64,000 nucleotides of DNA from NCBI RefSeq assembly GCF_900100695.1, contig NZ_FNCF01000001.1, positions 588,060-652,059 on the forward strand. The letters are read 5' to 3'. A model generated the notes under the pieces. The model saw nothing but the letters and a program-made list of their open reading frames with translations, had not been told where the DNA came from and made no database searches. Origin of the DNA: Klenkia brasiliensis. Its GTDB lineage: Bacteria; Actinomycetota; Actinomycetes; Mycobacteriales; Geodermatophilaceae. The position numbers and the translations under genes were made by a program. Numbering within the stretch: position 1 is the stretch's first letter; the number at the start of each line of letters is the position of its first letter. Shown piece by piece: positions 16,367 to 48,849 of the stretch.

Positions 16367-16530
16367 GCGTCGTCCCCTCACTCGTCGTGACCGGTCGCAG
16401 CGGCCCCCGCCGCCGTGACCACGCCATCGGCGGGTGAACACCGCCTGACGTCCGGGCACACAGTGACCGTCCGTGAGGTGTCGGGCAAGGGGTTCCTGCG
16501 CGGACCACCCCAACGTGTGCCGACCCACGG

Positions 16531-16547
16531 CGTGACGGATCGTCACG
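16531..16547. promoter_or_regulatory. Inverted repeat CGTGACG-GAT-CGTCACG
   Basis: Perfect 7-bp arms around a 3-base spacer, in the shared upstream region of the divergent sugar-phosphate transferase and LCP genes. It uses the same GTGACG/CGTCAC half-sites as the palindrome at 14421, arranged in the opposite order, so one dimeric regulator could control both genes. Inference only. Confidence 0.45.
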
Positions 16548-16660
16548 GAGCTGCTGCCACTACGCCAGGTCACGGACCGGTCGCTCTGAGGTCATCCAGG
16601 TCGCCACCCCATCGGGTGGTGCGGAGCACACGGTCGGGGCCGGTGGACCGGCCGCCCGTC

Positions 16661-20068: not shown

Positions 20069-20605
20069 GTGCACTTCACTCCCGCAGGGGCCCAGCGGCT
20101 GACGGGCAAGCTCGTCGCGGAGGTCTCGATGTGGCCGGTGTGGCCCGTCGTCCTCCGCCGCCGACTGCTCGTCGCGGCCGGCCTCCAGCTGGCGCCGACG
20201 GTCGACGTGAAGGACCGCGTCCGTTTCGTCAGGCGCAATGTCTCGGTGGGCGACGGGACGCGGATCAACCGCTACAGCTACTTCGAGGACCACGCCGGGG
20301 TGCACATCGGCCGCGAGGTCTCGGTGGCCGCGCACTGCAAGGTGCTGACCACGACGCACACCCTGGGCCCCGCGGCCCGGCGGGCCGGCCCGCTCGAGGA
20401 GCGGCCGGTCCGGATCGGGGACGGCTGCTGGCTGGGCACGGGGGTGACGGTGCTGGCCGGGGTCACCATCGGCGACGGCTGCGTGGTCGCCGCGGGCTCG
20501 GTCGTGACGTCGGACTGCGAGCCGCACGGCCTGTACGCCGGGGTGCCCGCCCGGCGGAAGAAGGACCTGTTGCCTGCCCGGGAGTCGGCCGCGGCGGGTC
20601 AGTAG
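20069..20605 (+). CDS. Left-handed beta-helix (hexapeptide) acyltransferase
   Basis: 178 residues. Transfers an acetyl or acyl group from CoA to a sugar, probably decorating the EPS repeat. Hexapeptide repeats run from about residue 60: VSVGDGTRINRYSYFEDHAG, VHIGREVSVAAHCKV, VRIGDGCWLGTGVTVLAGVT, IGDGCVVAAGSVV. The TTTHTLGP loop supplies the catalytic-type histidine, and the end (PHGLYAGVPARRKK) is the usual Vat/CysE-like C-terminus. Two starts are possible: the GTG at 20069 (longer form, with an amphipathic N-terminal helix common in this family) and the ATG at 20129, which has GGAGG 5 bases upstream. The 3' end overlaps the convergent sugar transferase gene by 7 bases. Confidence 0.86.
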   Translation: MHFTPAGAQRLTGKLVAEVSMWPVWPVVLRRRLLVAAGLQLAPTVDVKDRVRFVRRNVSVGDGTRINRYSYFEDHAGVHIGREVSVAAHCKVLTTTHTLGPAARRAGPLEERPVRIGDGCWLGTGVTVLAGVTIGDGCVVAAGSVVTSDCEPHGLYAGVPARRKKDLLPARESAAAGQ

Positions 20606-22071: not shown

Positions 22072-22247
22072 CTGCACCCCCGTGCGGTCGCCTTCGGGGG
22101 ACACGTGTCAGGGCCAGGTGGCCGCTCCCCCGGGTGCGGCGCCCCGAGGGAGTGTAGGTGAATGCGAGCCGTGCCCGGTCCGGATCATGGACGTTCCTGT
22201 ACCGCCACGGGTGTCGTGACGCGGAGTGCGCGGTCCGCGGCCCCGGG

Positions 22248-22463: not shown

Positions 22464-23048
22464 TCACCCAGCGCGACGGTCGACCTCCGGGCCGGCGAGA
22501 GCCCGCAGCAGCGGCAGCAGCGCGGCGGCGATGTCGCTGCCCACCTGCGCGTGCACCTCGGGCGGTCGCCGGTAGGGGTCGGTGATGTCGGTGGCGCCGC
22601 TGCTCCCCCGCCAGTCGTTGCGCCGCCGGGCCAGCGCGGCCACGAGGTGCCGGCCGCGCTCGTCGAGGTCGGTCGCCGTGGGCAGGTCGGTGGGGCGCAG
22701 CAGGCCGAGGACGGCGGAGGCCTCCCGCAGCGTGAACGTGCGGCGCAGGGCGCGGGGGGCGCGTTCGAGCACGGTGCTGCGGTGCCCGCGCTCCAGGGTG
22801 AGCACCAGGTCGGCCTGCTCGGCCATCCAAGGCAGGAACGCGCGTGCCCCGAAGCCGTCGGCGTCGCCGCCGAGCCCGGCGAGGACGACGGCGGCGTCGG
22901 GGTCCATCGGTCGGCCGACCAGGGCGCCGGTGCCGGCGCTGGTGGCGGTCAGCCCGGGGACGTCGGCCTCGGCCGCGAACGCGGTGGTGAGCCGTTCGGC
23001 CAGCGGGGAGCGGCAGATGTTGCCGGTGCAGACGAAGAGCAGGTGCAC
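22464..23048 (-). CDS. Low-molecular-weight protein tyrosine phosphatase (copy 1)
   Basis: 194 residues. Removes phosphate from phosphotyrosine, most likely on the BY-kinase or its targets in EPS control. The active-site P-loop C-x5-R-S is intact: VCTGNICRSPLAE, Cys7 nucleophile and Arg13. The DITDPYRRPPEVH segment holds the general-acid aspartate in the usual DP motif. It is longer than the classical 150-160-residue enzymes because of an inserted helical part with TFTLREASAVLGLL, as in the other copies here. It starts 3 bases after the stop of the zinc-ribbon membrane protein gene, so they are probably one transcript. Confidence 0.92.
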   Translation of the reverse strand: MHLLFVCTGNICRSPLAERLTTAFAAEADVPGLTATSAGTGALVGRPMDPDAAVVLAGLGGDADGFGARAFLPWMAEQADLVLTLERGHRSTVLERAPRALRRTFTLREASAVLGLLRPTDLPTATDLDERGRHLVAALARRRNDWRGSSGATDITDPYRRPPEVHAQVGSDIAAALLPLLRALAGPEVDRRAG

Positions 23049-23976: not shown

Positions 23977-24630
23977 TCAGGCGGCGGAGCGGACCGCGAC
24001 CGGCTTGGCGGTCACCGGCTGCGGCACAGCGGCCGGGGCCCACAGCTCGGTGGCGAACTCGGGCAGCACGAGGGCGCGCAGCAGCTTGCCCAGCCGCTTC
24101 TCGATGACCTGGGCGACCTCGACGTGCGCGGCGGCGGGCTTGCCGATCGGGTCAGGGACGTCGTCCTGGCCGGGTTCGGTGACCCGGTTGCGGCGGGCGT
24201 CGGCGAGCATCGTGATCAGTGCGCGGGCGTGGGCGTCGCCGTCGTTGGCCAGCGGGGCGGCGACCGGCGGCAGGGTGCGCAGCAGGCCGACGGCCTCGCG
24301 GAGGGTGAAGACCTTGCGCAGCCCGCGGGGGTAGGTGGCGAGCACGGTGGCCCGCTGCTCCTCGGTCATGGTGATGACCAGGTCGCTCTCGGCCACCATC
24401 TCGACGGTCAGCTGCTGGGCCAGGTGGCCCTTGCCCTCGACCCCGCGGGCGGCGAGCGCGGCGCGGGAGGCGGGGTGCATGGCCGAGCCGACGACGGCGG
24501 CCGTGCCGGCGCTGGCGACCTGGATCTGGTCGGCGTCCCCGGGCAGCCAGTCCTGCAGCCCACGGCGGGTCATCCGCTCGGCCACGGCGGAGCGGCAGAT
24601 GTTCCCGGTACAGACGAAGGTCAGGCGCAC
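23977..24630 (-). CDS. Low-molecular-weight protein tyrosine phosphatase (copy 2)
   Basis: 217 residues with an intact P-loop, VCTGNICRSAVAE (Cys7, Arg13), and the general-acid segment DDVPDPIGKP. The inserted KVFTLREAVGLLRTLPP helix matches the other copies. The C-terminus adds an Ala/Pro/Val-rich tail. The GTG start at 24630 has no ribosome-binding site, but a -10-like TACCGT ends about 7 bases upstream, so a leaderless mRNA is likely. The same arrangement precedes the degenerate copy at 39369, with clear similarity through the promoter. The gene is divergent from LCP copy 2. Confidence 0.92.
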   Translation of the reverse strand: MRLTFVCTGNICRSAVAERMTRRGLQDWLPGDADQIQVASAGTAAVVGSAMHPASRAALAARGVEGKGHLAQQLTVEMVAESDLVITMTEEQRATVLATYPRGLRKVFTLREAVGLLRTLPPVAAPLANDGDAHARALITMLADARRNRVTEPGQDDVPDPIGKPAAAHVEVAQVIEKRLGKLLRALVLPEFATELWAPAAVPQPVTAKPVAVRSAA

Positions 24631-24637
24631 GGACAGA

Positions 24638-24643
24638 ACGGTA
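24638..24643 (-). promoter_or_regulatory. Putative -10 box of a leaderless LMW-PTP mRNA
   Basis: TACCGT on the minus strand ends about 7 bases before the GTG start, placing the expected transcription start at or near the start codon. Preceding bases (TGTGAC, then CGGTCCC) are conserved ahead of the paralog at 39989. Confidence 0.5.
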
Positions 24644-24771
24644 GGGACCGATCAGTCACAAAGTGTTACGACACGCATCTTCTGCGTCGTGATGTGCAGA
24701 GTTTCGAGGCCCGGATCCAGCCCGTCCCGGCTGTCACAAAGGCCCCATCCGCCACGGTCAACTGCCCACAT

Positions 24772-26921: not shown

Positions 26922-27590
26922 TCAGCTAACGAGATAGAGGCGCGGCTTGCCGTCGCCGTCGTCGGGGTCCTCGGCGGCCGCGGGGGCGGGGCGGAGGGCC
27001 ACCAGCCGGTCGAGCAGCGGGATGAGCGACTCGGCGATGGTCTCGGCGACCTCCTGGTGCACCTCGAGCGGCCGGCCGATGGGGTCGGTGATGTCGTCGG
27101 CGGCGTCGGAGGGCCGGCGGGAGCGGGCCGCAGCCATCCGCTTGACCAGGGAGCGGCAGCGCTCGGCGAGGTCGTCGCCGCCGAGGGCGGTGGCAGGGTC
27201 GACGAGGGCGACCAAGTCGGTGGCTTCCCGGAGCGCGAAGGTGCGCTGCAGAGCGCGCGGGGCGGCCTTGAGGACGGCGCGGCGGTGGGTGCGGGTGAGC
27301 GCCAGGGTCAGGTCGGCGTCGATGGCCATGTCGTCGAGCAGCTGACGGGCGACGTGACCCGTGGGGTCGCCGCCGAAGCCCCCGAGCACCGTTGCGCTGT
27401 CGGGGTGGACGCCGGCGCCCTTGACGGCGTGCGTGCCGGCGCTGACGACCTGGATACGGTGCGCGTCGTCGCCGAGGGCCTCGTCGAGGTAAGCGCGGGC
27501 GATCCGCTCGGCCATGGCGGAGCGGCAGATGTTCCCGGTGCAGACGAAGAGCACGGTGAACACCGGGTTCGGGGACCAGTGCCGTGCCAC
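26922..27590 (-). CDS. Low-molecular-weight protein tyrosine phosphatase (copy 3)
   Basis: 222 residues from the GTG at 27590. The P-loop VCTGNICRSAMAE is intact (Cys17, Arg23), as is the general-acid motif DDITDPIGRP. The inserted TFALREATDLVALVDP helix matches copies 1 and 2. The C-terminal tail is acidic (EDPDDGDGKPRLYLVS). The GTG at 27590 was chosen because GGGGGAG stands about 9 bases upstream; the ATG at 27608 would place that sequence inside the gene. It follows the zinc-ribbon gene at 27654 on the same strand, mirroring the LMW-PTP/zinc-ribbon pair at 22464-23468. Confidence 0.9.
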   Translation of the reverse strand: MARHWSPNPVFTVLFVCTGNICRSAMAERIARAYLDEALGDDAHRIQVVSAGTHAVKGAGVHPDSATVLGGFGGDPTGHVARQLLDDMAIDADLTLALTRTHRRAVLKAAPRALQRTFALREATDLVALVDPATALGGDDLAERCRSLVKRMAAARSRRPSDAADDITDPIGRPLEVHQEVAETIAESLIPLLDRLVALRPAPAAAEDPDDGDGKPRLYLVS

Positions 27591-27653
27591 GCGGTCAGTC
27601 TCCCCCATCGCTGCGTCGCTGACCGGTTGCGCGGCGTGTCCACTGCTGGGACG

Positions 27654-29435: not shown

Positions 29436-29639
29436 GCAGTGCACCCCCGTGCGATCCGGCCCGGGGTGCCGACCCCAGGGTTGCCCATGCAAGCCCTGGA
29501 ACCCCGCTGTTCGTCCGGCTGCTCAGCAACCTAGCGAACACAGGCCGTCACCGGCACCCCCCCTGGACCATGCGGACGGGTGAAGCGAGCCACGTTCAGC
29601 ACTCGCGTTGCGTCACGGGTCGATTCAGTGCCGCACAAC

Positions 29640-31025
29640 TCAGCTGGTGGTCGGCGCCGTCGGGTCCGGGTCGTAGCCGTAGTTGTAGCCGTACCCATAG
29701 GCCGAGGTCACCTCCGCCTTCGGCGGCACGATGTTCAACACGATGCCCAGCGTCTTCGCGCCAACGCGACCAAGCGTCGCCTGTGTCTGAGCTAATTGTT
29801 CCTTCGTAGTGCTGCCATACCGCAGGGACAGGACGACGCCGTCCACAAGTACAGCCAGGCCGCTGGCGTCCGCTACCGGCAGCAGAGGCGGCGCATCAAG
29901 GAGCACGAAATCATTCTTAACACGAAGATCGTCGATTAGCGAAAACATGTGAGACGAAGAAAGTAATTCGCTAGGATTTGGAGGCGTGGGACCAGCAGCA
30001 ATGACCGTCAGGTCACCGTCCCCATAGGGTTGTTCCACGTCTTCTACAGCCGCCGAGCCAGTGAGAATGTTCGTGAGGCCAACACCCCCCACCATCCCCA
30101 GATATCGTGTTACCCGAGGACGTCGTAGGTCCGCCTCTATGAGAGTCACAGACCTTCCAGCTTCCACAAGCGACAGGGCGAGATTAACGGCAAGCGTCGT
30201 CTTCCCTTCAGACGGCACAGCGCTGGATACCATGATCACTTTCGGCGGCTCGTCGATGTTCAAAAACTGAAGATTAGTTCGCAATTGGCGGTAACCTTCG
30301 GCGGACCTACCCACTCCATTTCGCTCGATGGTGTGTTGGGCAGCGAGCGCCTCGTCTCGTACAATCACACCAATTACCGGGCTCCCGGACAGGGCACTAG
30401 CGTCCTCTGCGTCCCGCACGGTCCGGTCAAGCCGCAACCTCAAGATTGATACTGCCGCGCCTAGGAATAGTCCACCCGCCAATCCGATCGCCAGATTCCT
30501 CGCGATCTTCGGCGAGTCTGCGCTATCCGGCAGGTTGGGGCGATCGGTGACGGTTACGCGAACTGGCGGGGCTGCGCCAGTTTCTCCCGTAGCCTCTAAT
30601 TCATCCACAAGATTCGAGAACTCAACCCCAACCGCCTCGGCAATGCGCTGCGCTTGACGTGGCGATGGATCCTCGACAGAAACGTCGATCAGAACAGTAT
30701 CGACTACGGGGACGGCGCTGATCCGTTGCGCCAGCGTTGCAGGCGTCACACTTAGATCCAGGTCGTCCACTACACGAGACGCCAGATCTTCACCCTGCAA
30801 GAGCCGCGCGTAAGAAGCCACCCGCTGCGCGGAGAGTTGGCTGCCCTGAAACGCGTCCGATGTAGATACGACCTCGGTGGCAGACACAAAAAGCTGCGTG
30901 TTCGAGACATACATCGGCGTCTGAAGCAGGCTGACACCAAGGGCAAGCCCAGGACCGACGAGTGCGCCAACGAGCAGGAACCACCAGCCGCTACGCAGTG
31001 CTCGAAGAACCTCGTTGAGCTCCAT
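29640..31025 (-). CDS. Wzz/BY-kinase fusion (CpsD/CapB-type tyrosine autokinase)
   Basis: 461 residues. Fuses a polysaccharide co-polymerase (chain-length) domain to a bacterial tyrosine kinase. The N-terminal membrane helix is at about 12-35 (RSGWWFLLVGALVGPGLALG), a Wzz-type periplasmic region follows, and a second helix lies near 180-200. The kinase domain has Walker A (SSAVPSEGKTT), Walker A' (VTLIEADLRRP) and Walker B (FVLLDAPPLLPVAD), all intact. The C-terminal tyrosine cluster YGYGYNYGY is the autophosphorylation tail read by LMW-PTPs. The start ATG has GGTGG 6 bases upstream. It controls polymer length and export through phosphorylation cycling. Codon bias is intermediate, at the edge of the low-GC island. 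Confidence 0.94.
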   Translation of the reverse strand: MELNEVLRALRSGWWFLLVGALVGPGLALGVSLLQTPMYVSNTQLFVSATEVVSTSDAFQGSQLSAQRVASYARLLQGEDLASRVVDDLDLSVTPATLAQRISAVPVVDTVLIDVSVEDPSPRQAQRIAEAVGVEFSNLVDELEATGETGAAPPVRVTVTDRPNLPDSADSPKIARNLAIGLAGGLFLGAAVSILRLRLDRTVRDAEDASALSGSPVIGVIVRDEALAAQHTIERNGVGRSAEGYRQLRTNLQFLNIDEPPKVIMVSSAVPSEGKTTLAVNLALSLVEAGRSVTLIEADLRRPRVTRYLGMVGGVGLTNILTGSAAVEDVEQPYGDGDLTVIAAGPTPPNPSELLSSSHMFSLIDDLRVKNDFVLLDAPPLLPVADASGLAVLVDGVVLSLRYGSTTKEQLAQTQATLGRVGAKTLGIVLNIVPPKAEVTSAYGYGYNYGYDPDPTAPTTS

Positions 31026-31263: not shown

Positions 31264-32475
31264 TCATTTAGCTCCGGCCAACTTCAAACTGCACATCATT
31301 AATACAAGAAAACCGAAGTTACTCACAAACGACTGCTCCGTTACACCGTAGAGTAGTAGGCAACCGAAGGCCATACTCGACCAGACGACTGGCCGAGCCG
31401 CAGTCTCCTCCAGACGGCTCGTGTTCACGACGAAGCGACCTAGGGGGAATATTAAAAGCAGAACCAACCCAACAAATCCAACCTGCAAAATAACGTCGAG
31501 GAAGGCGTTATGAGCATGCGCGAAAGCGAAATGAGCCGAACTCCACATCTCCTCCGTCACCTGTACACCCGGGGTCCATAAAGCATTCCAACCGTAGCCG
31601 ATCCAAGGCTGCGCGTTGATAAACGGGAGTACGGCAGCCCAAATAATTGTTCTTCCGGTCAGGGATGCATCACGACCGAGCAAACCAGAAGCTGCCGAGT
31701 AATTGGTGAAAATTATTAGCGCGAAGCCCGCAACCATCGCCGTCACGGCCGCGAGCGTCACCCGTCGGCCAACTTCGCTCATTTTGCGAGTCTGCCTCAC
31801 AACTAAGCCCAGTAAGAGAACCGCCGCCAGGACAACGAGCGATGTGCTGCTCCGCGCTAAAAGGAGGCACAATAACGTCAGAATTAACCAGAAGCACTCT
31901 TTGTGCTTGCGCCCAAGCGACCACTCTCTATCCCAAAGCGCAACCGTACTTATGATGATGACGACCATCACGAACGACGCTACATTGCGCTGAACGAAAA
32001 GACCAGTAAACGCTCCTGCCTGATAAAAGCTCTGCTCGCGCCCAATGCTCGGTACAAAGACATACGTGATGGCACTGAGCGCAACCACAACTCTTAGCCC
32101 ACTCAAGAAGGCCGCCAGAGTCTGCTCGGGACCACAGGTTTCCCACACAGCCGCGGCGGCGAGCAGGAGTAGGAGGGACAACACAACACCATCAAATGTG
32201 GCGCCGCCAGCAACCGACCAGAAAGAAGATGCGCCAATCCAGCCGAAAAATATCAGGGATGACCAATGAATCGGAGAGAGCAATGTGCGGCGCGCACACA
32301 AAAGGAGTACCACGACACATGCCCCGACGGTCAACGGGCCGCTAAGGCGGAATGGCGACACCGAGACGATCGCCACCAGCGACGCGAAAGCAAGCCGCGC
32401 GAGCTGGCGTCGAGAAACCCCGTCCTTACCGCCCGTCAGTGGTTCGCTGTATCCCTGTGCATTTGCTGCAGCCAA
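31264..32475 (-). CDS. Wzy/O-antigen ligase-like polymerase
   Basis: About 403 residues with roughly eleven membrane helices (LVAIVSVSPFRLSG onward) and a large periplasmic loop carrying RNVASFVMVV and YGWNALWTPG, then AHNAFLDVILQVGF, the Wzy_C histidine-containing motif. Polymerises flipped repeat units or ligates glycans at the outer membrane face. I chose the TTG at 32475, preceded by GGGAG 6 bases away; ATGs at 32508 and 32547 lie inside the flippase gene and give a hydrophilic, unlikely extension. It overlaps the 3' end of the flippase gene by about 40 bases, so it is probably co-transcribed. GC is low, matching the island. Confidence 0.87.
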   Translation of the reverse strand: MAAANAQGYSEPLTGGKDGVSRRQLARLAFASLVAIVSVSPFRLSGPLTVGACVVVLLLCARRTLLSPIHWSSLIFFGWIGASSFWSVAGGATFDGVVLSLLLLLAAAAVWETCGPEQTLAAFLSGLRVVVALSAITYVFVPSIGREQSFYQAGAFTGLFVQRNVASFVMVVIIISTVALWDREWSLGRKHKECFWLILTLLCLLLARSSTSLVVLAAVLLLGLVVRQTRKMSEVGRRVTLAAVTAMVAGFALIIFTNYSAASGLLGRDASLTGRTIIWAAVLPFINAQPWIGYGWNALWTPGVQVTEEMWSSAHFAFAHAHNAFLDVILQVGFVGLVLLLIFPLGRFVVNTSRLEETAARPVVWSSMAFGCLLLYGVTEQSFVSNFGFLVLMMCSLKLAGAK

Positions 32476-33749
32476 GACCGTCTCCCTGCTAAGAACACCG
32501 CGATCCATATAACGGCAGTCACTGTCGAACTGCAGGCTATTACCCATAATCCTCCACTTGCTGCCATCCAGATACAGAACGCCGCTACGCTACCTAGAAT
32601 TGGCAGCGCCAGAAGCGCGCGCACTTTGATCTGCACACCGATCTGCCGATTTGCGCGCAAAAGGACACCGAAGCAACCACCGACTAAGCTGGCGATTAGC
32701 TGCACTATGAGCGGTGGCAGGTACTCCCGTGCGTCCCTCCAGTCGCCACCCACCAGGGTGGAGATCCAAGGGCTTGGCAGGAACCAAAGCAACAACCCAT
32801 AACTGGCGAACGCGACACTGCCGGCAGCTGCCACAGCGGAAGCGAATCGGAGAGCAGAAAGGTCATACCTGCCAAACTTTCGGATGCGCTCGGCCAACAA
32901 CGGCTGCAAGGCCGCCAGCAGGCCCGAAATTACCACCATGGCTGGCCCCATGAGGATCTGAACTTTTCTGACCAACCCGAGCGAGTCGAGCGAGACCAAG
33001 ACCGACAGCAATAGTATTGCAATTTGACCCGAAGCCTGTGTCAGCAAGAAGTCGGACACTAGCCTGACCGAGCGACCAAAATTTCCTACTATCCACCTTG
33101 AACCAGCGCGGAACTCGGCCCCACGCCATCCTCGCCCACGCAGCAGCAGGCCAAGACCAATTAAGCCCCCTGGCACTGACGACAGACCCCAAATGGCAAC
33201 AACAAGAGTGCTTGACCGGAGACCGGCTGAGCAAGACAGCCACACCCAAAACGCAGCATTAATGGACCAGCAAGTTGAGATAAGCAACGCTGCACCCATT
33301 CGCCGCTCTGCGTAGCAAGTCCATCGCACGTGGTCCTGCAAGACCACCGCCGCCAAGGCTACCGCCAGAAGCGACCATTCCCACCAAACGAAAGAAACTT
33401 GCATCAAGAGAGTCGCCACCGCGGCGGCTGCCGCGGCAATTGGCCAGCAGGTCGTCCCAAGGGCAGTTAAACTTGGAAGAGCATTGCTTAAGAATTCAGA
33501 AGTACGAGGTCGGGAGGACTCTCCGTACGACAAAATTAGTGTGTCGCCGAACCAGCTGCGTGTCGCCGCCTGCAATGTCACGGCTACGAGGAGTCCTACA
33601 GAGAACTGCCCGAAGACCGGCAGGCTCACGTAGTGGGCGACGACCAGGCTCGTAAGGAGATTGCCTAGGCTGGAGACGCCGGCGTCAACCATCCCGAGAG
33701 ATAGTCTGGACCCTCCCGTCTTCGACCCCAGCGACTTCAACGGTGCCAT
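32436..33749 (-). CDS. Wzx-like flippase (polysaccharide biosynthesis protein)
   Basis: 437 residues and about twelve membrane helices. The N-terminus (MVDAGVSSLGNLLTSLVVAH) and the following PVFGQFSVGLLVAVTLQAAT segment fit the oligosaccharide flippase group. The ATG at 33749 shares a base with the TGA of the upstream glycosyltransferase (TGATG), so translation is coupled. It should flip the island's repeat unit; other flippases lie at 866 and 49211. Low GC. Confidence 0.87.
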   Translation of the reverse strand: MAPLKSLGSKTGGSRLSLGMVDAGVSSLGNLLTSLVVAHYVSLPVFGQFSVGLLVAVTLQAATRSWFGDTLILSYGESSRPRTSEFLSNALPSLTALGTTCWPIAAAAAAVATLLMQVSFVWWEWSLLAVALAAVVLQDHVRWTCYAERRMGAALLISTCWSINAAFWVWLSCSAGLRSSTLVVAIWGLSSVPGGLIGLGLLLRGRGWRGAEFRAGSRWIVGNFGRSVRLVSDFLLTQASGQIAILLLSVLVSLDSLGLVRKVQILMGPAMVVISGLLAALQPLLAERIRKFGRYDLSALRFASAVAAAGSVAFASYGLLLWFLPSPWISTLVGGDWRDAREYLPPLIVQLIASLVGGCFGVLLRANRQIGVQIKVRALLALPILGSVAAFCIWMAASGGLWVIACSSTVTAVIWIAVFLAGRRSWLQQMHRDTANH

Positions 33750-34882
33750 CAGCGGGCTGGAAATGATGCGTAGACCCGCATCAGGTCCCCTGCCAAACTT
33801 TCCAATGCGAAGTTGTTGACGAAGACCTCACGGCTTCGTTCACCTGCACGATCCAGCGGCACCCTTTTCAGGAAGCCTGCCAATAGGGCAGCCACGGAGC
33901 TAGCGGAGTCACCCGGGTGGAAAAGAATGCCGTTTTGCCCATCGCGCACAGCCTCTCGGCATCCGCCGACGTCCGGCACAACAACGGGAAGCGACAGCGA
34001 CAGCGCTTCGAGTAGCGCTAGCGGCAACCCTTCACGCTCAGAACAGAGCAGAAACACGTCCGCAGATGCTAACGCCCGCGCTGGATCGTCAGAGTGACCA
34101 TGCACATGGAAGTTCTTCACCTGAGCGACTCGCGCCGCGTCGATGACCTCCTGTTGCAAAGACCCTCCCCCGAACCAATGGAATGAGACATTGAGCCCAT
34201 GGTCCCCGAGTGCTTGGCACAATCTGACCGCGAATAATGGTCGCTTTTCCGGCTCAAGTCGCCCAAGCGTTACAATCTTAAGCAGCGAGTCCGCAGGGTC
34301 GGGACTCAGTGTCCTAACAGCCGTTCCGCTTTGATCATCTACCCTATTAGTTACCACATGCAAGCGTGCCTCCGTCCAGGGATATCGCTCCCTTACATGT
34401 GCAGCCACTGTTTGAGAACACGCGACTATAGCGTCGGCGCGGTACGACAACTTTCGCGTCGCACCGGCGTCGATGACGTTGTGCACGTGCTCTACGCTTC
34501 TCACCCTAAAGAGTCGGCCCCAGGCCGTCGAAACGAGCGAGACACCGCGTTGATGGCTGTGAACTAGCTGAACGGGCCCATTGATCCATAGGCGCGTGAG
34601 CCTGATGAACAGAGTCAGCGGCCACAAGAAGTGCCGTCTCGATCGTTCCCCAATGACGGAAGCACCCTGCGGCGGCTTCATAGACGGGTCCACCGGACCG
34701 TCAATCACTATCGCGACATTTAAACCCTCGTCGATCAGGACTTGACACAGGTTGAGAACGACACGCGGCAACCCCCCACGGTTTAAATTGTCTGTAACCA
34801 TAACGATGGTCGGCGTCGCGACCTTCCGGCGCCGACCAAGGGACGCGAATTGACCGTCTCGAAGCGGAGGTCGGCTAATCAT
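33749..34882 (-). CDS. GT4 glycosyltransferase
   Basis: 377 residues. N-terminal GT-B domain opens with TIVMVTDNLNRGGLPRVVL; C-terminal donor domain has VTLGRLEPEKRPLFAVRLC and EREGLPLALLEALSLSLPVV, the E-x7-E motif. The ATG at 34882 overlaps the stop TAG of the nitroreductase-like gene by 8 bases. Cytoplasmic, adds a sugar during repeat-unit assembly. Low-GC codon use places it in the island. Confidence 0.9.
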   Translation of the reverse strand: MISRPPLRDGQFASLGRRRKVATPTIVMVTDNLNRGGLPRVVLNLCQVLIDEGLNVAIVIDGPVDPSMKPPQGASVIGERSRRHFLWPLTLFIRLTRLWINGPVQLVHSHQRGVSLVSTAWGRLFRVRSVEHVHNVIDAGATRKLSYRADAIVACSQTVAAHVRERYPWTEARLHVVTNRVDDQSGTAVRTLSPDPADSLLKIVTLGRLEPEKRPLFAVRLCQALGDHGLNVSFHWFGGGSLQQEVIDAARVAQVKNFHVHGHSDDPARALASADVFLLCSEREGLPLALLEALSLSLPVVVPDVGGCREAVRDGQNGILFHPGDSASSVAALLAGFLKRVPLDRAGERSREVFVNNFALESLAGDLMRVYASFPAR

Positions 34883-35882
34883 TTTTGACCATTTTTATGG
34901 TTCCAGCCAGCGGCTTGCGATCGGCGACCGGAATCTCACTGGTCTCGGGTCGGGCGCCCACTGCAATAAAAAGGATGATCTCATCGGCCGGGTCCGCTCC
35001 CAAAATTCGAACGACCTCACGACGATCCCGCCTGTACAGGCAGGCGTTTAGGGGCACCGCCCCGAGACCTTCTGCCTCGAGCCCCAGCAATACCGACATC
35101 GAGAATAATCCACCGTCGACGAATCCTTGATTGCGCTCAACCGGGCTTATAAAGAAAGCATTTGAGCACGTGATCGTCAAAAGGATCTCGGGCATAACAT
35201 CGTATGCGAAGCCCCGTTGGTGCTGAAGAATTCGCGCAATGGTCTGCTTATCCTCGCACCAAAACACAGACCAAGCTTGCCTATTGCAGACAGAGGGTGT
35301 CTTCAGAGCTGATTGAATAGATCGCTCGACGCCATTCGGGTCTATCGGCTCACCCGTAAATTCCCGAATGCTCACCCGCCGTTTGAACAAGGAATAAAAG
35401 TTGTCGCGAACAACTTCATCCGCCAACTCCGATGTGACCCTCTGGGTACCAGCCCCAGCGCGCGCGCGCAGCCGTTCTTCCGCTAGGACGATCGGGTGAA
35501 GCAGTTTGTCTAGAAACTGGGTATCAACATCAGCAGCCTCATGACGTTCGCGATACCTTTGAATGACTGAGATTCCCTGATCGAAGGCAAAGGAGTCTGT
35601 CCCATATCCTAATTCGATACAACGAGCCAGTGAATCACTCAAGTTCCTGATCGCCGACGTGCCTCGACGGGGTTCCCACTTTCTGCTTTGGGCAAGTCCT
35701 TTTTCAATTGAATGCACAAAGTACAGAGTTCGCCCGTGGATTTGATCCCGCGATGAGTCAAAGGTCGAGAGGGACGAACCCCGCCAAAAGCGGGCGGCGT
35801 CGGAGACCGCATACATCCCTAGACGGCCTGCCTGTGCAGCTCGCTTGATGAGCTGCCGCCGCCGGCTGTTGTGAAGGGGCAT
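34875..35882 (-). CDS. Nitroreductase-family protein in EPS operon
   Basis: 335 residues. The C-terminal about 190 residues form the FMN-binding nitroreductase-type fold: RRVSIREFTGEPIDP and SALKTPSVCNRQAWSVFW are the usual flavin contacts, with LEAEGLGAVPLN near the end. The N-terminal about 140 residues (RGSSLSTFDSSRD and onward) are a distinct extension. Such proteins often sit beside pyruvyl transferases in EPS loci, where a redox step or structural role is suspected, unproven. The start ATG overlaps the pyruvyl transferase TAA by one base (TAATG). Low GC. Confidence 0.86.
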   Translation of the reverse strand: MPLHNSRRRQLIKRAAQAGRLGMYAVSDAARFWRGSSLSTFDSSRDQIHGRTLYFVHSIEKGLAQSRKWEPRRGTSAIRNLSDSLARCIELGYGTDSFAFDQGISVIQRYRERHEAADVDTQFLDKLLHPIVLAEERLRARAGAGTQRVTSELADEVVRDNFYSLFKRRVSIREFTGEPIDPNGVERSIQSALKTPSVCNRQAWSVFWCEDKQTIARILQHQRGFAYDVMPEILLTITCSNAFFISPVERNQGFVDGGLFSMSVLLGLEAEGLGAVPLNACLYRRDRREVVRILGADPADEIILFIAVGARPETSEIPVADRKPLAGTIKMVKND

Positions 35883-37021
35883 TAGCGCACCGGGTTCATG
35901 AGGCGGCCCAGATATTGGCGCGACTTCAATCGCTGTTCGTCGATCCGACTCGAAACTAGATCGAAGTCGAGGGTGGCCGGCAGCACTTCAGTCAGCTGAT
36001 CAACATCATACAGGCCCCTCCCTCGTAGTCCGAGTTGCTCCAAAAGGAACGTCAATTTCTCCTCGTTGCCGTATCCATGGGTGCGGCTTCGGCGGATAAG
36101 ACTTACGAACGGGGTTTTGCTGATAACCGAGAAGATAGTTCCGTGAAACGTATCAGTCACCACAGCCTGAGCTCCAGCGAAATAGCTTAGTACCTCCAGC
36201 GGGCTGCAATCGACGAATGTCCCCTCACCAGGCTGGATTCCGCCGATAAAAACAATCTCAAGCCCAGCGTTCTTCGCATACCGCTGGACAGTTCTACTCT
36301 CCGATTCGGAGAAGCGTCCGGAGTAGCCGTAAACAACTACATATGGTTTCGGTCGTTTGGCATGGACGAGGTGTTGAGGAGAAAATTCGTGAATTAGGGT
36401 CGGGTCCAGATGTAGCTCTGGGTCCGTCCCAATAAGCTCTTGCACAATTGCCCTAGAATTTTGATCCCGAACCGATAGCGCAGCAAATCGCCGCAAGTCC
36501 GAGGCTAGCTCGGCCTTGATGCCGGCAGCAACAATTTTGTCCATCGTGGTGTTTCCGAACGAAGCCGCATAGCTAGCTAGGGTGCTCGCGGACGATCCAT
36601 GACCGAAGAGTTGCCTCGCATAACCAACGTCGGGGTTCGGCTGGACGCAGTTGAACACCTCGTCGCTACCGATGATCTGTAGGTCAACCTCAGTGCCAAG
36701 ATCACGCTCTGGGGTAATGTCAAGTTGTGAAAAGTACCGACGGTCGTATGACCGCTTGTGATTCAAGAACGCGATCTTGTTGCGGGGTTTTCCTGGTCCG
36801 CCAGCATGGGCGAGGGCTTTAGACAGCTTCCCCGCCAGGCCGATTTTGCTGCCGCGGGGACCCGTTCCAGGGCCGATAAGCGGATCACCGGGCTCGTAGT
36901 CAATGAATCGGACCTCCGCGTTCGGCTGAATCTGACGGAGAGTGTGACTAAGAGCAAAGGCTTGCAGCGACGATCCATAATTCTTTATGCGCTGCATCGA
37001 CATGATTCCAACCGTCAACAT
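35882..37021 (-). CDS. Polysaccharide pyruvyl transferase family protein
   Basis: 379 residues. Family members attach a pyruvate ketal from phosphoenolpyruvate to EPS sugars, adding charge. N-terminus VGIMSMQRIKNYGSSLQAFA and DLQIIGSDEVFN are family-typical; C-terminal VVTDTFHGTIFSVISKTPFV is the conserved histidine-containing motif. First gene of a five-gene minus-strand operon (pyruvyl transferase, nitroreductase-like, GT4, Wzx, Wzy). Divergent from the WecG-type gene across about 115 bases. Low GC. Confidence 0.9.
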   Translation of the reverse strand: MLTVGIMSMQRIKNYGSSLQAFALSHTLRQIQPNAEVRFIDYEPGDPLIGPGTGPRGSKIGLAGKLSKALAHAGGPGKPRNKIAFLNHKRSYDRRYFSQLDITPERDLGTEVDLQIIGSDEVFNCVQPNPDVGYARQLFGHGSSASTLASYAASFGNTTMDKIVAAGIKAELASDLRRFAALSVRDQNSRAIVQELIGTDPELHLDPTLIHEFSPQHLVHAKRPKPYVVVYGYSGRFSESESRTVQRYAKNAGLEIVFIGGIQPGEGTFVDCSPLEVLSYFAGAQAVVTDTFHGTIFSVISKTPFVSLIRRSRTHGYGNEEKLTFLLEQLGLRGRGLYDVDQLTEVLPATLDFDLVSSRIDEQRLKSRQYLGRLMNPVR

Positions 37022-37084
37022 ATGTATCGCTCCCCGGTCGCGAAGGTCGAGCTCAGCCGCTTCTCGAAAAGTGCACTTCCAGAT

Positions 37085-37112
37085 ATGGTAGCGTCCCGCG
37101 GCACCCTACCAT
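37085..37112. promoter_or_regulatory. Divergent -10-like boxes forming an inverted repeat
   Basis: ATGGTAG at 37085-37091 and CTACCAT at 37106-37112 are perfect inverted 7-mers. Read outward each gives TACCAT, a plausible -10 for the pyruvyl transferase operon (minus) and for the WecG-type gene (plus). Either two back-to-back promoters or an operator; not resolvable by eye. Confidence 0.4.
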
Positions 37113-37135
37113 GCGACTGGAATTCGGTGACCGTT

Positions 37136-37912
37136 ATGTTGGCTTCGGTCAATCAAGTTAAGATTAAGTTACTTCGTGGCAACATTAGCCTGCTCACGAG
37201 TCGTGATGTTGCTGCGCTAGCCATGAGCCACTCTGCGGCACACCAGCCTCTCTTGATCGGTAACCTTAATCTGCACGGTGTTTTCCTGCGAGAATCAAAC
37301 GAAAAGTTTGCCCGGTTTTGCGCCCAGGTCGACATTATGTTGGCGGACGGTATGCCACTTGTTTGGCTCTCCGGTGCACCGGCGTCCGCTCGGATCAGCA
37401 GCACCGACTGGATAACGGAGCTGGGCGTATTGGCCCACGGCCTCAAGGTCCTGATCGTGTCCGGCACGCCGTCCGATGCGGCTGTAACGCAACAAGTGCT
37501 GACCGCCCGCTTTCCTCGCATTCATTGGGATTGCGTGGACGGCTACGCAGGGGCGGTTATGAGTTCAGAGCTAAGATCGAAAATTGACACTGCGAACGTC
37601 ATCCTGGTCGGCATGGGAATGCCGTTACAAGAGGAATGGATTCTCGAGAATTTCTCTTTGCTCGCCCCAAAAGTGGTCGCCAATGTGGGTGGGTGTTTCG
37701 ACTATTTTAACGGACGCCAGAAAGTTCCTCCCCGGCTGCTTAGCAGCGTCGGGCTTGAGTGGTTATTTCGTCTGCTACATAGTCCTAGACGACTAGGGCG
37801 ACGGTATCTAGTGGAGCCGCTCCACTTAATTCTGATCATCACCCGCCGAAGCTTGTTTGGATATGGGAAAGGCGCAACTAGCTCCGCTCCTGAAGGGCAT
37901 CGTCGATCCTAG
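37136..37912 (+). CDS. WecG/TagA/CpsF-family glycosyltransferase (GT26)
   Basis: 258 residues, the usual length of the family that adds N-acetylmannosamine-type sugars to lipid-linked N-acetylglucosamine. Signatures: LADGMPLVWLSG, VDGYAGAVMSSE region, and VGMGMPLQEEWILEN, which holds the catalytic-type residues. I chose the ATG at 37136; an in-frame GTG at 37127 is equally possible, and the ATG at 37022 abuts the divergent gene with no ribosome-binding site. The 3' end overlaps the convergent GT4 gene by 35 bases. The only plus-strand gene of the low-GC island. Confidence 0.87.
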   Translation: MLASVNQVKIKLLRGNISLLTSRDVAALAMSHSAAHQPLLIGNLNLHGVFLRESNEKFARFCAQVDIMLADGMPLVWLSGAPASARISSTDWITELGVLAHGLKVLIVSGTPSDAAVTQQVLTARFPRIHWDCVDGYAGAVMSSELRSKIDTANVILVGMGMPLQEEWILENFSLLAPKVVANVGGCFDYFNGRQKVPPRLLSSVGLEWLFRLLHSPRRLGRRYLVEPLHLILIITRRSLFGYGKGATSSAPEGHRRS

Positions 37913-39083
37913 CTCCCAAAGCCGCGGTGGAGAACTTATCGTGCGCCACGGAGCGGGCGTAACGACTAGCTTGATAAAGACTATCGGAGGACAGGTTTGT
38001 GATTGCTGCCGGGAATTGGTCCATCGATTGAACTAGAGCCGCTGCCGCCTTGGTGGGGATTCCCTCCATACCCTGATAAGTAGAAACGACGGGAATTCCA
38101 TAGCCCATAAAGGTGAGAGTTTTTAACTTAAGCCCTGCTCCCGTAAGAATGGGAACAATGCCCACTCGTGCTCCGCGGAGAGCAGTTGATAGCTCGGGGG
38201 CATAACCGACATAATCCACCATTGACTGAGCCTTTAGCCACCGTTCTTTACCCTTCGACGCCCCACCGCCGACAACTCGAACCGTGAAGCCATGGGCGTC
38301 GAGCCATTTTCCATTTGTTCGGATAAATTCCTTTAATCCATCCCAATTTGGACCATAATTGAGCGTCCCCATCCACAGTAATGTCCGGGATTCGGGATCA
38401 AATCCAGTCGGATCGATGGGAACGTCGAACACAGATGGGATTACTTCGACCACCGGAGTCGAATAGTATTTTGCAAGTCGTTCGTGTTCCGCGGTCGTCG
38501 TAACCCAGACTTGGTTGGCCACCCCGAGCACGCGTTTCTCAAATCGGAAGGCCAATGGTGCCTGCAGTGCACCGCGTATTCGCTGCGTGATGCCGCGCGC
38601 TTCCCTCACGGCCCGCAAGTCCGAGCTTACGAGGACGTTGCTTTTGTCCCAAATCAGCTCCGAATTCGACCTGCGAGCCGCTAGTCCCGCCGCTTCTCCG
38701 AGCAGGATCAGAGTTGAGAATTCTCCTGCTTCGATCCGGTCGCCGACCATCCGCACAGATTGGGGTGTCACTAGGGTGAGGACCCAGGGGGGAATACCCT
38801 GGGCTAGCCCTTGCAGCGTTCGTCTAAGTCTCGAAGTGACGGATCGTGACGATGTTTCTAGGCGTGGGGCAAGAACCCATTCGATGGACGGATTTCGAGC
38901 GGCAACTTCTCGTATGTGGGCCTCTGAAGTTCCGTCTCGTCTGATCGTGATGACGGTTGTTTGATATCGTTTCGCAATTTCGTCGATTATCGCAAGGCGT
39001 CGGAGCGCGTCGCCGTGATTCTGCGGCCACGGGAAAAATGGGCTGAATATCAGGACCTTTGGACCAGCCGCGCACATGGGCAT
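37878..39083 (-). CDS. GT4 glycosyltransferase
   Basis: 401 residues. N-terminal GT-B domain starts KVLIFSPFFPWPQNHGDALR; C-terminal domain LLWMGTLNYGPNWDGLKEFI, then GLKLKTLTFMGYGIPVV, the donor-binding motif in which lysine replaces the first glutamate, as in one GT4 subgroup. Cytoplasmic. First gene at the right end of the island on the minus strand, preceded by a 285-base AT-richer gap (39084-39368) in which I see no gene. Ends overlapping the WecG-type gene. Low GC. Confidence 0.9.
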   Translation of the reverse strand: MPMCAAGPKVLIFSPFFPWPQNHGDALRRLAIIDEIAKRYQTTVITIRRDGTSEAHIREVAARNPSIEWVLAPRLETSSRSVTSRLRRTLQGLAQGIPPWVLTLVTPQSVRMVGDRIEAGEFSTLILLGEAAGLAARRSNSELIWDKSNVLVSSDLRAVREARGITQRIRGALQAPLAFRFEKRVLGVANQVWVTTTAEHERLAKYYSTPVVEVIPSVFDVPIDPTGFDPESRTLLWMGTLNYGPNWDGLKEFIRTNGKWLDAHGFTVRVVGGGASKGKERWLKAQSMVDYVGYAPELSTALRGARVGIVPILTGAGLKLKTLTFMGYGIPVVSTYQGMEGIPTKAAAALVQSMDQFPAAITNLSSDSLYQASRYARSVAHDKFSTAALGARIDDALQERS

Positions 39084-39368: not shown

Positions 39369-39989
39369 TCAGGCAACCGCTGTCGCCGTCGGTTGGACTC
39401 CCGGCGCCTCAGTTCCGGTCTTAGCGTAGGGCTGGACCAGCGACCTCAATATGCGCGCCACGCATGCTTGAATCTGCTCAGCAACAGCCACTATGTCCGC
39501 CTCATTCCCAATTAGATCGGGTAGGTCGTCCGATCCATCAAACGCCCGATGAAACCGGCGCAGGGAGGCCATTCCGGCGACGAAAGCACGAGCGTGGGCC
39601 TCAAACTCCGGCGCTAGCGGAACCTCGACCTGCAACGCATCGCAAAGTCGCGCAGCCTCGAGCAACGTAAAGGTGCTCCGGAGACGGAGCGGGTGCAGTG
39701 CCAGTGCCGCGTCGCGCTGGATCGCACCCATGGTGAGTACGAGGTCCGCATGATCGAGGACCTCGCTGGTCATCCAACGGGCACGGTGGTTCTCCGCGCG
39801 CAATCCAAGGCCGGCCAAAACTCGCTGGGCGGGTGCGGGAATGACCGCGCCTATTTGAGGGCGCACCCCCACGCTCTCGATCTGAATAAGGTTGCGGTCT
39901 GGATCCCACTGGGCAAGCAGAGATCGCGCCATGAGGTCGGCCATGGCCGAGCCCCACACGTTGGTGGTGCAGACGAAGACGATGCGCAC
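39369..39989 (-). CDS. Degenerate LMW-PTP-like protein lacking the catalytic arginine
   Basis: 206 residues, clearly homologous to the three LMW-PTPs of this window over its full length, including STFTLLEAARLCD. The P-loop reads VCTTNVWGSAMAD: nucleophile Cys7 kept, but the invariant Arg13 is Gly (codon GGC) and the loop Cys12 is Trp. The general-acid segment is DDLPDLIGNE, keeping Asp but losing the following Pro. Without the arginine, phosphate binding and catalysis should fail, so it is probably a pseudophosphatase or an inactive relic that is still an open frame. The GTG start at 39989 lies 7 bases from a -10-like TACGGT conserved with LMW-PTP copy 2, suggesting a leaderless transcript. 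Confidence 0.87.
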   Translation of the reverse strand: MRIVFVCTTNVWGSAMADLMARSLLAQWDPDRNLIQIESVGVRPQIGAVIPAPAQRVLAGLGLRAENHRARWMTSEVLDHADLVLTMGAIQRDAALALHPLRLRSTFTLLEAARLCDALQVEVPLAPEFEAHARAFVAGMASLRRFHRAFDGSDDLPDLIGNEADIVAVAEQIQACVARILRSLVQPYAKTGTEAPGVQPTATAVA

Positions 39990-39996
39990 AGATCAG

Positions 39997-40002
39997 ACCG
40001 TA
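39997..40002 (-). promoter_or_regulatory. Putative -10 box of leaderless LMW-PTP-like mRNA
   Basis: TACGGT on the minus strand, ending 7 bases before the GTG. The sequence around it (CGGTCCC before, TCTGATCTGTGCGC after) is closely similar to that before the LMW-PTP at 24630, indicating that the promoter was duplicated with the gene. Confidence 0.5.
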
Positions 40003-40126
40003 GGGACCGGCCCGTCACACACCGGCTCGCCACGCTCACTCATTGTCGACATGTCTGCACCGGGGTCTCGGCAGCACTCGCCAGCCCGTCGTCGCCGATC
40101 GCCATCCGACCAGTGACCGATACAGC

Positions 40127-40178: not shown

Positions 40179-40400
40179 TCAGCGGGTGGCGGTGCGCAGC
40201 GCTCCCCGCAGCAGGACGGTGGCAGCGACGAGTCCGCCGGCGTTACCGGCGAGCAGACCGGCCACCGCGGTCAGGACCAGGTCCCCGCCGGTCGAGCCCA
40301 GCAGCAGTCCGACGGTCAGCGCGACGGCCAGCCCGGTGAGCAGTCCGACGACCAACAGCCACCAACCCTGTCGCAGGACCTCGCGCACGTCCGCACCCAC
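40179..40400 (-). CDS. Wzz-like membrane stub (73 aa)
   Basis: Small two-helix membrane protein. The N-terminus VREVLRQGWWLLVVGLLTG closely resembles that of the Wzz/BY-kinase at 29640 (LNEVLRALRSGWWFLLVGAL), but the periplasmic and kinase regions are missing. A second helix runs about 45-65 (LTAVAGLLAGNAGGLVAATV). The start is the GTG at 40400, which has GAGGAG 6 bases upstream; the ATG at 40478 adds a polar extension. It could be a minimal co-polymerase-like regulator or a degraded remnant of a second wzz gene; full-length homologs would decide. Confidence 0.66.
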   Translation of the reverse strand: MGADVREVLRQGWWLLVVGLLTGLAVALTVGLLLGSTGGDLVLTAVAGLLAGNAGGLVAATVLLRGALRTATR

Positions 40401-47286: not shown

Positions 47287-48849
47287 TCAGTACGCTCCGG
47301 AACCCTTGACGACGGCGCCGAAGGTCTTGGCCAGGATCATGAAGTCGAAGGACAGCGACCAGTTCTCGACGTACCGCACGTCGATGCGCACCGACTCGTC
47401 CCACGACAGGTCCGACCGGCCGCTGATCTGCCACAGCCCGGTGATGCCCGGCTTCACCAGCAGCCGGCGCCGCATGTCGACGCCGTAGGCCTCGACCTCG
47501 CGGGTCACGTGCGGCCGCGGGCCGACCAGCGACATGCTGCCGCCGAGCACGTTGAACAGCTGGGGCAGCTCGTCGAGGGAGTAGCGCCGCAGCACCGCGC
47601 CGACCCCGGTGATGCGGGGGTCGGCCTTCATCTTGAACTGGACGTCGTTGCCCTCGTTCGAGGTGGCGAACAGCTGGTCGACCTCGCGGTCGGAACCCGG
47701 CCGCATGCTGCGGAACTTCAGCACCTCGAACGGCTGGCCGTCCATGCCGATGCGCTGGTGCCGGTAGAACACCGGACCGGGGCTGGTCAGCTTCACGGCC
47801 AGCGCGATCACCAGCAGCGCCGGCGCGGTCATGAGCACCAGCAGCCCGGCCACCGTGCGGTCGAAGGCCGACTTCGCCCAGCGCCGCGGGCCGCTGAACT
47901 CGGGGCTGTCCATGTGCAGCAGCGGCAGGCCCGAGACCGGCCGGATGGCGACCCGGGTACCGACGATCTCGGTCACCGCGGGCGCGAGCAGCAGCTCCGC
48001 GCGGGTGGCCTCCAGCTCCCAGCCCAGCCGGCGCAGGTCCGGCCCGTCGAGCTCGGGGGACGGCAGGACGGCGACGGTGTCGACCTCGTACCGGCGCACC
48101 ACCTCCGCGACCTGGGTCATGTCGCCGAGCACCGGCAGGCCGTCGAACTCGTCCTGGGACTCGTCCACGCCCTGGCCGGGGGGCAGCACGCAGCCGATCA
48201 CGCGGTAGCCGTGGTGGGCCTCGCGGTCGATCTGGCGGTGCAGGTGGGCCACGCCGCTGCGGTGGCCGACGATGACCGTGGTCTGGGTGTGCCGGCCGGC
48301 GATCCGCTGCCGGTGCAGCACCTTCCGGTGCACCCACCGGCCGAGCAGGGTCAGCACGGCGGCCATCGGGATGGCCGTCATGGTGAACCCGCGGGCCAGG
48401 TCGAGCTTGAGCGCCCAGGACACGAACGCCACGCCGCCCAGCAGCGCGAGGGTCGCGCGGGCCACCCGGCGGTACTCCTCCGGGCCGATCCAGAGGTAGC
48501 GCTCCTCGTAGCTGCGGGCGGCGAACATCAGCGCGACCCAGCCCAGCGGCATCGCGAAGGCGAGGAAGCGCGCCGCCGACTGCGGGACACCGTCGATGGG
48601 GGCGTCGTCCCCGAAGTGCAACCAGTAGCTCACCGCGGTGGCCAGCGTCGCGGCGACCAGGTCGGTCAGCGCGATGCGGCGGCGGTAGGCGCCCCGCCAG
48701 GCCCGGCGGGCGTCGGTCCCCTGGCCCCGGAGCCGGGACGCGAAGGGCCGACGGCGGGTCCGCAGCGGGCGGGCCGGCCGCGCGTGCGGCGCCCGCGCGG
48801 CGGTGCTCAGGTCGGTCGAGTCGATCACGTGGTTCGGTGTCCCCCGCAC
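47287..48849 (-). CDS. Polyprenyl-phosphate sugar-1-phosphate transferase (initiating enzyme 4)
   Basis: 520 residues. N-terminal membrane helices from about residue 50 (IALTDLVAATLATAVSYWL), Rossmann-like middle domain with VIVGHRSGVAHL, and the catalytic C-terminus: SPGPVFYRHQRIGMDG, VLKFRSM, YSLDELPQLFNVLGG, SLVGPRPHVTREVEAYG, VKPGITGLWQISGRSDLS, ending GSGAY. The middle and C-terminal parts are closely related to the enzymes at 20599 and 27927, more so than to the one at 14822. GTG at 48849 has GGGGG 4-5 bases upstream; a GTG at 48828 is possible. Divergent from the flippase gene. Confidence 0.94.
   Translation of the reverse strand: MRGTPNHVIDSTDLSTAARAPHARPARPLRTRRRPFASRLRGQGTDARRAWRGAYRRRIALTDLVAATLATAVSYWLHFGDDAPIDGVPQSAARFLAFAMPLGWVALMFAARSYEERYLWIGPEEYRRVARATLALLGGVAFVSWALKLDLARGFTMTAIPMAAVLTLLGRWVHRKVLHRQRIAGRHTQTTVIVGHRSGVAHLHRQIDREAHHGYRVIGCVLPPGQGVDESQDEFDGLPVLGDMTQVAEVVRRYEVDTVAVLPSPELDGPDLRRLGWELEATRAELLLAPAVTEIVGTRVAIRPVSGLPLLHMDSPEFSGPRRWAKSAFDRTVAGLLVLMTAPALLVIALAVKLTSPGPVFYRHQRIGMDGQPFEVLKFRSMRPGSDREVDQLFATSNEGNDVQFKMKADPRITGVGAVLRRYSLDELPQLFNVLGGSMSLVGPRPHVTREVEAYGVDMRRRLLVKPGITGLWQISGRSDLSWDESVRIDVRYVENWSLSFDFMILAKTFGAVVKGSGAY

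Follow-up and report, generated by a model that had tools for sequence, protein, structure and literature searches.

Described systems related to the Klenkia locus

The LMW-PTPs of exopolysaccharide loci, such as Wzb and AmsI, have the same fold as the protein considered here, and in systems of the Wzb, AmsI and VpsU type the polysaccharide locus is accompanied by a BY-kinase with a tyrosine-rich tail, as it is in Klenkia brasiliensis. VpsU of Vibrio cholerae is described as dephosphorylating VpsO (PMC7485978), and the account of this pair illustrates how a BY-kinase and an LMW-PTP control polysaccharide output (PMC7485978). In the window, which is the whole stretch of 64,000 nucleotides that was analysed, a gene at 39369..39989 (-) encodes a pseudo-LMW-PTP, referred to below as dead PTP, with the P-loop CTTNVWGS and a DDLPD loop. 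It is distinguished from Wzb, AmsI and VpsU by a broken CX5R motif (Gly for Arg, and Trp for the second Cys) and by an acid loop in which DP is DL. Both dead PTP and the intact copies of the window also differ from these proteins in having an insertion of about 40 aa before the acid loop.

To our knowledge, pseudophosphatases have been described mainly in eukaryotes, and no paper on a bacterial pseudo-LMW-PTP or a bacterial pseudophosphatase was found in the open-licence literature of PubMed Central, as judged by listings. The STYX-type pseudophosphatases, in the accounts given of them, resemble dead PTP in the loss of a catalytic residue with fold and constraint kept, but they are eukaryotic and have lost Cys, whereas dead PTP is bacterial, has the LMW-PTP fold and has lost Arg with Cys kept (PMC2175518, PMC5106787). 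Unlike the STYX-type proteins as these accounts describe them (PMC2175518, PMC5106787), dead PTP has an intact twin behind the same upstream element. What is known is the family and the fold; what is new is a form without Arg that is conserved within a genus and has a twin under the same element.

Gene, predicted fold and orthologs

As the preliminary description had stated, the reading frame of dead PTP is intact: it begins with GTG and encodes 206 aa without an internal stop codon. The only Pfam-A family detected on the protein was LMWPc (residues 3-112, 45.4 bits against a gathering cut-off of 23.2), and both the profile score and the predicted fold place it in the LMW-PTP family (PF01451). 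The AF2 model, based on an 11-sequence alignment, had a mean pLDDT of 89 and a pTM of 0.86, with residues 193-206 as the only segment below a pLDDT of 50. Comparison of the model with solved phosphatases of the LMW-PTP fold gave VIA Z values of 17-22; the scores were 21.9 for YwlE, 21.6 for the LMW-PTP of T. tengcongensis, 20.4 for Wzb and 16.5 for ArsC, with ArsC, PTS EIIB and other folds compared only within Foldseek's top-ranked chains. The order of helices and strands was the same in a control model of PTP-B, the intact paralog closest to dead PTP. The earlier claim that the whole LMW-PTP fold is kept agrees with these values, and the fold is predicted to be intact.

Orthologs of dead PTP with an identical loop are present in K. 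soli (NZ_FNIR01000009.1, 58% identity) and K. terrae (NZ_UEXK01000004.1, 54%), so that a sequencing error in the loop is unlikely. Pairwise identity among the three dead proteins is 54-63%, and the stretch MRIVFVCTTNVWGSAMA is identical in all of them. The only Cys that is invariant across the trio is Cys7.

The best structural match, the arginine phosphatase YwlE, has an intact CTGNTCRS loop. ArsC, a thioredoxin-dependent arsenate reductase of related fold, possesses both CX5R and a further redox Cys pair. Dead PTP has lost the CX5R Arg and has a single invariant Cys, and its assignment as an ArsC was rejected.

Altered active site

The P-loop of dead PTP reads C7-T-T-N-V-W12-G13-S14, compared with CTGNICRS in the three other LMW-PTPs of the window, PTP-A (26922..27608 (-)), PTP-B (23977..24630 (-)) and PTP-C (22464..23048 (-)). 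The preliminary description had reported these three intact copies and the loss of the invariant Arg and the loop Cys from dead PTP; both observations hold, with Gly13 in the place of Arg and Trp12 in the place of Cys. It was silent on the residues that are retained, namely the nucleophile Cys7, Asn10, Ser14, Asp155 and the DPD-loop general acid Asp158, which are invariant in all three orthologs. The Pro next to Asp158 is Leu in all three dead proteins. Instead of the CX5R(S) loop of a catalytic LMW-PTP, CTTNVWGS was found in 3/3 orthologs.

The dead trio was aligned with 14 selected canonical sequences and a single Cys-less one, and 34 columns were invariant among the canonical proteins. All three dead proteins kept 23 of these, 5 were variable among them and 6 were uniformly changed (G9T, I11V, C12W, R13G, R19L and P159L). 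Four of the uniform changes are in the P-loop, one is just past it and one is in the acid loop; the changes at otherwise invariant columns are concentrated at the active site. Compared with PTP-B, the dead trio shows fixed differences at 33 positions, and 47 positions are invariant and common to both. In CX5R phosphatases the Arg chelates phosphate, and its loss abolishes catalysis; Arg13 was invariant in 14/14 canonical rows. Judging from the sequence, dead PTP is probably catalytically inactive, and it combines the loss of a catalytic residue with a retained predicted fold, as expected of a pseudophosphatase.

The preliminary description had suggested that dead PTP could be a phosphotyrosine-binding antagonist, which would hold the phosphotyrosines of the BY-kinase tail and shield them from the active enzymes. 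A BY-kinase with a YGYGYNYGY tail is indeed encoded in the locus, and its orthologs of 77-78% identity were found only in the other dead-PTP species. The usual design of a phosphate trap, however, is the loss of Cys with Arg kept, as in a protein of genome G066 (GTGNICRS), and in dead PTP this is reversed. Since the phosphate-binding Arg is lost and a Trp stands in the loop, the affinity for phosphoryl groups should fall. Phosphate trapping is described for pseudophosphatases from other families (PMC5106787), but the loss of Arg with Cys kept disfavours a phosphotyrosine trap here, and we consider this function quite unlikely.

Another possibility is that the active site has been re-purposed, with Cys7, Asn10, Ser14, Asp158, Trp12 and Gly13 lining a pocket for a new ligand or for residual chemistry, for example that of a phosphocysteine carrier without a P-loop Arg, as in PTS EIIB. 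The EIIB proteins of the cellobiose/lactose type have an Arg-less loop with a phosphorylated Cys, and they have PTS partners. Such a role would fit the invariance of the five retained residues in a trio where about half of the columns have changed (95/210 invariant), and the fixation of the new loop residues in all three orthologs. The retention of the five residues, however, may reflect loop folding, the Arg that was given up is the one invariant in the 14 canonical rows, and no PTS family was found by Pfam among 18 neighbour proteins (8 from the window and 10 from two relatives). Literature support for the EIIB analogy was not found either, and a re-purposed site seems unlikely.

Origin from the PTP-B lineage

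Trees were computed from 135 sequences with a quick search and, with the loop masked, from 45 sequences chosen from these with a careful search. The three dead proteins formed one clade in both trees (support 100/99 in the 45-sequence tree), and this clade was sister to the three PTP-B proteins with a support of 88 in the 135-sequence tree and 95/89 in the loop-masked one. The G066 protein branched outside dead PTP and PTP-B (support 98 and 97/98, respectively). In the 45-sequence tree the stem branch of dead PTP was 0.84 long versus 0.40 for PTP-B. On phylogenetic grounds, dead PTP is a duplicate of PTP-B or of its ancestor.

A survey of 142 distinct loop sequences comprised 130 of the CX5RS form, 7 ArsC-like ones, the dead trio and 2 without Cys (G066 and G025). 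The unit of these numbers is the distinct sequence rather than the genome, after removal of entries with identical first 60 residues, and the numbers cover part of the places from the family search. Because the pattern fixed the positions of C or G, of N, and of R or G, other degenerate forms are missed. Four loci outside an earlier loop pattern were canonical by alignment. The Cys-less protein of G066 (L021, G066:C56:120743-121321) is of the PTP-B type; its nucleophile Cys is replaced by Gly and its Arg is kept, which is the design expected of a substrate trap. The second Cys-less LMW-PTP (L179 / L199, G025:C6:245412-245936) has the loop GDGNVRRS and a long branch. A single genome stands behind each of these two loops, and a sequencing error is therefore possible in both.

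Upstream element shared with PTP-B

The query element GTGACNGNNCGGTCCCTA was derived from the upstream regions of the three dead genes. Its two exact matches in the window are the promoter-like element GTGACGGGCCGGTCCCTA before dead PTP (40001..40018 (-)) and the same element GTGACTGATCGGTCCCTA before PTP-B (24642..24659 (-)), each 11 bases before the start codon; the element is absent before the PTP-A and PTP-C genes of the window. In the nine Klenkia genomes, with at most one mismatch allowed, it was found at 15 places, which are the three dead genes, the three PTP-B genes and nine 23S rRNA loci identified by Rfam, and at no place besides these. The copy before PTP-B of K. soli carries one mismatch. 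The 11-base spacing applies to all six genes provided that MRIV is taken as the start of the dead genes in K. soli and K. terrae; a further ATG lies two codons ahead of MRIV in both. When up to three mismatches were allowed, the count in the window was 7, which is not above chance (at least 7 in 16/100 shuffles), and the weight therefore rests on the pair of exact matches, on where they lie and on the outcome across the genomes.

The alignment of the six upstream sequences of dead PTP and PTP-B has in common a TANNNT box and, further upstream, a GCGTGTCG-like stretch. The TANNNT element just before the start of dead PTP is kept in three species. Upstream of the Cys-less gene of G066 there is merely a vague similarity to the element. 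It seems that the element is a promoter, and the leaderless-type promoter assigned to dead PTP in the preliminary description is plausible. Dead PTP and PTP-B are probably co-expressed.

Distribution and selection

Searched for with a degenerate DNA pattern, the altered loop turned up in 3/397 genomes of the order, all of them dead-PTP Klenkia species. The search of 84,980 genomes with the window's dead PTP protein as the sole query revealed no relatives. A second scan of these genomes took the alignment of the three proteins as query, with the patterns MRIVFVCT and TNVWGSAM, and may have omitted the window's own genome. It returned both orthologs from Klenkia together with five intact LMW-PTPs from elsewhere, one in an Acidimicrobiia MAG and the other four in Macrococcus, Planococcus and Staphylococcus. 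The family search with the dead PTP protein (E <=0.001) gave matches in 88/112 genomes, and the dead type was confined to three of the nine Klenkia genomes. Frequent disruption in close relatives, named at the outset as an argument against a pseudophosphatase, was not observed: no dead-type copy found in the nine Klenkia genomes contains an internal stop. In G079, a hit at 30% whose aligned stretch includes two TGA codons proved to be a canonical CTGNICRS copy (L063) rather than a dead one.

The preliminary description had also pointed to dN/dS among orthologs as a check. The Nei-Gojobori estimates for the three pairs, with bootstrap ranges in brackets, were 0.28 (0.17-0.40), 0.28 (0.17-0.44) and 0.17 (0.10-0.27), all below 1 even at the upper bounds, and they are rough because dS, at 1.4-1.8, is near saturation. 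The intact copies gave 0.16-0.20 (PTP-A), 0.19-0.48 (PTP-B) and 0.34-0.51 (PTP-C). Three orthologs with dN/dS of 0.17-0.28 at near-saturated dS indicate maintenance by selection, and a constraint on the whole dead PTP gene is supported.

The 5′ end of the gene (39933..39989 (-)) contains the altered P-loop, and the amino acids of codons 2-17 are identical in the three species. In these codons K. terrae shows 4 synonymous and 0 amino-acid changes against the other two, while up to codon 17 the window and K. soli do not differ even at synonymous sites. Within the first 20 codons of dead PTP, synonymous differences amounted to 1/14, 4/14 and 5/14 and were fewer than in later codons. The first 20 codons of PTP-B (24574-24630 (-)) likewise have fewer synonymous differences than the sequence downstream, as if the control region of both genes extended into the coding sequence. 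The invariance of the dead PTP loop may be due partly to DNA-level constraint or recombination, and it is only partly independent evidence because synonymous divergence at the 5′ end is low too. For the same reason, the run-length test of the loop (1.45e-6 for the 16 given columns; a run of at least 16 in 1/20,000 shuffles) is not treated as main evidence, synonymous changes also being fewer in the loop region.

The GC3 of dead PTP (0.70-0.79) is below that of PTP-A, PTP-B and PTP-C, and its synonymous divergence is above theirs. The low GC3, the high synonymous divergence and the long stem would fit a weakly expressed gene, a relaxation of constraint, or alleles that were exchanged together with the neighbouring cassette.

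The exopolysaccharide locus

The low-GC island described earlier was recovered in 1-kb bins, with a GC content of 0.54-0.60 at about 30 to 40 kb versus 0.64-0.82 elsewhere. It was also correct that the window holds active enzymes together with a kinase: the three intact LMW-PTPs are accompanied by a BY-kinase (29640..31025 (-)) with a Wzz and an ATPase domain and the tyrosine-rich tail AYGYGYNYGYDPD. In the reading direction of dead PTP the order is dead PTP, a variable exopolysaccharide cassette (31264..39083 (.)), the BY-kinase, a sugar transferase, PTP-A, an LCP-like gene in the opposite orientation, PTP-B and PTP-C; the sugar transferase, the LCP-like protein and an SGNH-like flank protein were named by reading their sequences. 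The cassette encodes a Wzy_C family protein, two glycosyltransferases, a pyruvyl transferase, a nitroreductase-family protein, a WecG family protein and one ORF that matched no family. Around this one locus lie four polyprenyl-phosphate-type sugar transferases, likewise recognised by sequence reading (14822-16573, 20599-22104, 27927-29492 and 47287-48849, all (-)) and interspersed with PTP and LCP-like genes.

In K. terrae the order dead PTP, cassette, BY-kinase, PTP-A, PTP-B and PTP-C is the same, and in K. soli the genes are on two contigs. Relatives of the cassette proteins in these two species are few and weak (29-36% identity), and the best matches of PTP-A, PTP-B, PTP-C, the LCP-like protein, the sugar transferase and the SGNH-like flank protein have 72-86% identity. 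Orthologs of the BY-kinase (77-78%) and of PTP-B (83-85%) were found only in the two other dead-PTP species, and distant BY-kinases (46-56%) in three Klenkia genomes without dead PTP. The co-occurrence of dead PTP, BY-kinase and PTP-B in 3/9 genomes is suggestive.

Directly upstream of dead PTP, a conserved flank gene (40179..40400 (-)) encodes a 73-aa protein with two putative TM stretches that resembles a Wzz N-terminus; no Pfam family above the cut-off was found for it. Six genomes from other genera have open frames, roughly 500-675 aa long, with internal stretches that match part of it; the frame examined in G022 is BY-kinase-like and 51% identical to the BY-kinase of the window. The small protein may be a dwarf Wzz. 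An obligate partnership with dead PTP was rejected because this protein occurs in 6/9 Klenkia genomes and dead PTP in 3/9. An operon of dead PTP with the cassette was rejected as well, because the next cassette gene is 285 bases away in the window and lies on the opposite strand in K. terrae.

The close relative G082, whose flank proteins are 82-96% identical, shows an apparent empty site (L090, G082:C7:608000-627000), where the LCP-like gene comes immediately after the 73-aa gene. The cassette is absent from the 19 kb around this site, and dead PTP, PTP-A, PTP-B, PTP-C and a near BY-kinase ortholog were not found in the G082 genome. The absence of dead PTP and cassette from this relative, the position of the gene at the cassette edge and its aberrant GC3 and synonymous divergence would be in line with a non-functional relic at the junction of a conserved flank and a swapped cassette. 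G082, however, shows absence and not decay, and a relic would not be expected to keep an open frame, an identical altered loop and a conserved upstream element in three species, nor to give dN/dS values whose bootstrap upper bounds do not exceed 0.44 in any pair. Since the orthologs have the identical loop and dN/dS below 1, decay is rejected as the main reading, and a relic is very improbable; of the two possibilities raised in the preliminary description, the pseudophosphatase candidate is preferred over the recombination relic.

Proposed role

We consider it probable, at roughly 0.6, that dead PTP is a maintained pseudophosphatase derived from PTP-B, which has lost catalysis and tunes the tyrosine-phosphorylation switch of exopolysaccharide synthesis through protein contacts. 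PTP-B or its ancestor would have been duplicated together with its promoter, and the duplicate would then have become inactive through substitutions that cluster in the active site. Dead PTP probably shares its transcriptional control with the active PTP-B and would adjust the switch by contacts, for example by pairing with PTP-B. Hetero-pairing is conceivable because VpsU is described as a domain-swapped dimer in its crystal (PMC7485978). Alternatively, dead PTP might compete with PTP-B for a site at which the BY-kinase, or some other client, is docked.

That dead PTP acts as a regulator rather than being a broken gene is suggested by the three species that keep both the altered site and the element shared with the twin. 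Its target, as we infer it, would be the twin at least as much as the kinase tail, given the sisterhood with PTP-B and the private element, neither of which the preliminary description had pointed out. The pseudophosphatase reading has against it that only three orthologs are known, all in one genus, and that pure scaffolding would not require the retention of Cys7 and Asp158.

A more general view, which we hold only tentatively, is that a paired active and inactive LMW-PTP behind one private promoter type runs the tyrosine switch of Klenkia, and that the PTP-B-type lineage repeatedly sheds catalysis, binding mattering more than hydrolysis; the lineage would have done so in an Arg-less form in Klenkia and in a Cys-less form in G066. 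With an inactive copy, an intact twin, a shared element and a BY-kinase in one locus, the small genes of this soil bacterium make a bacterial pseudophosphatase directly testable.
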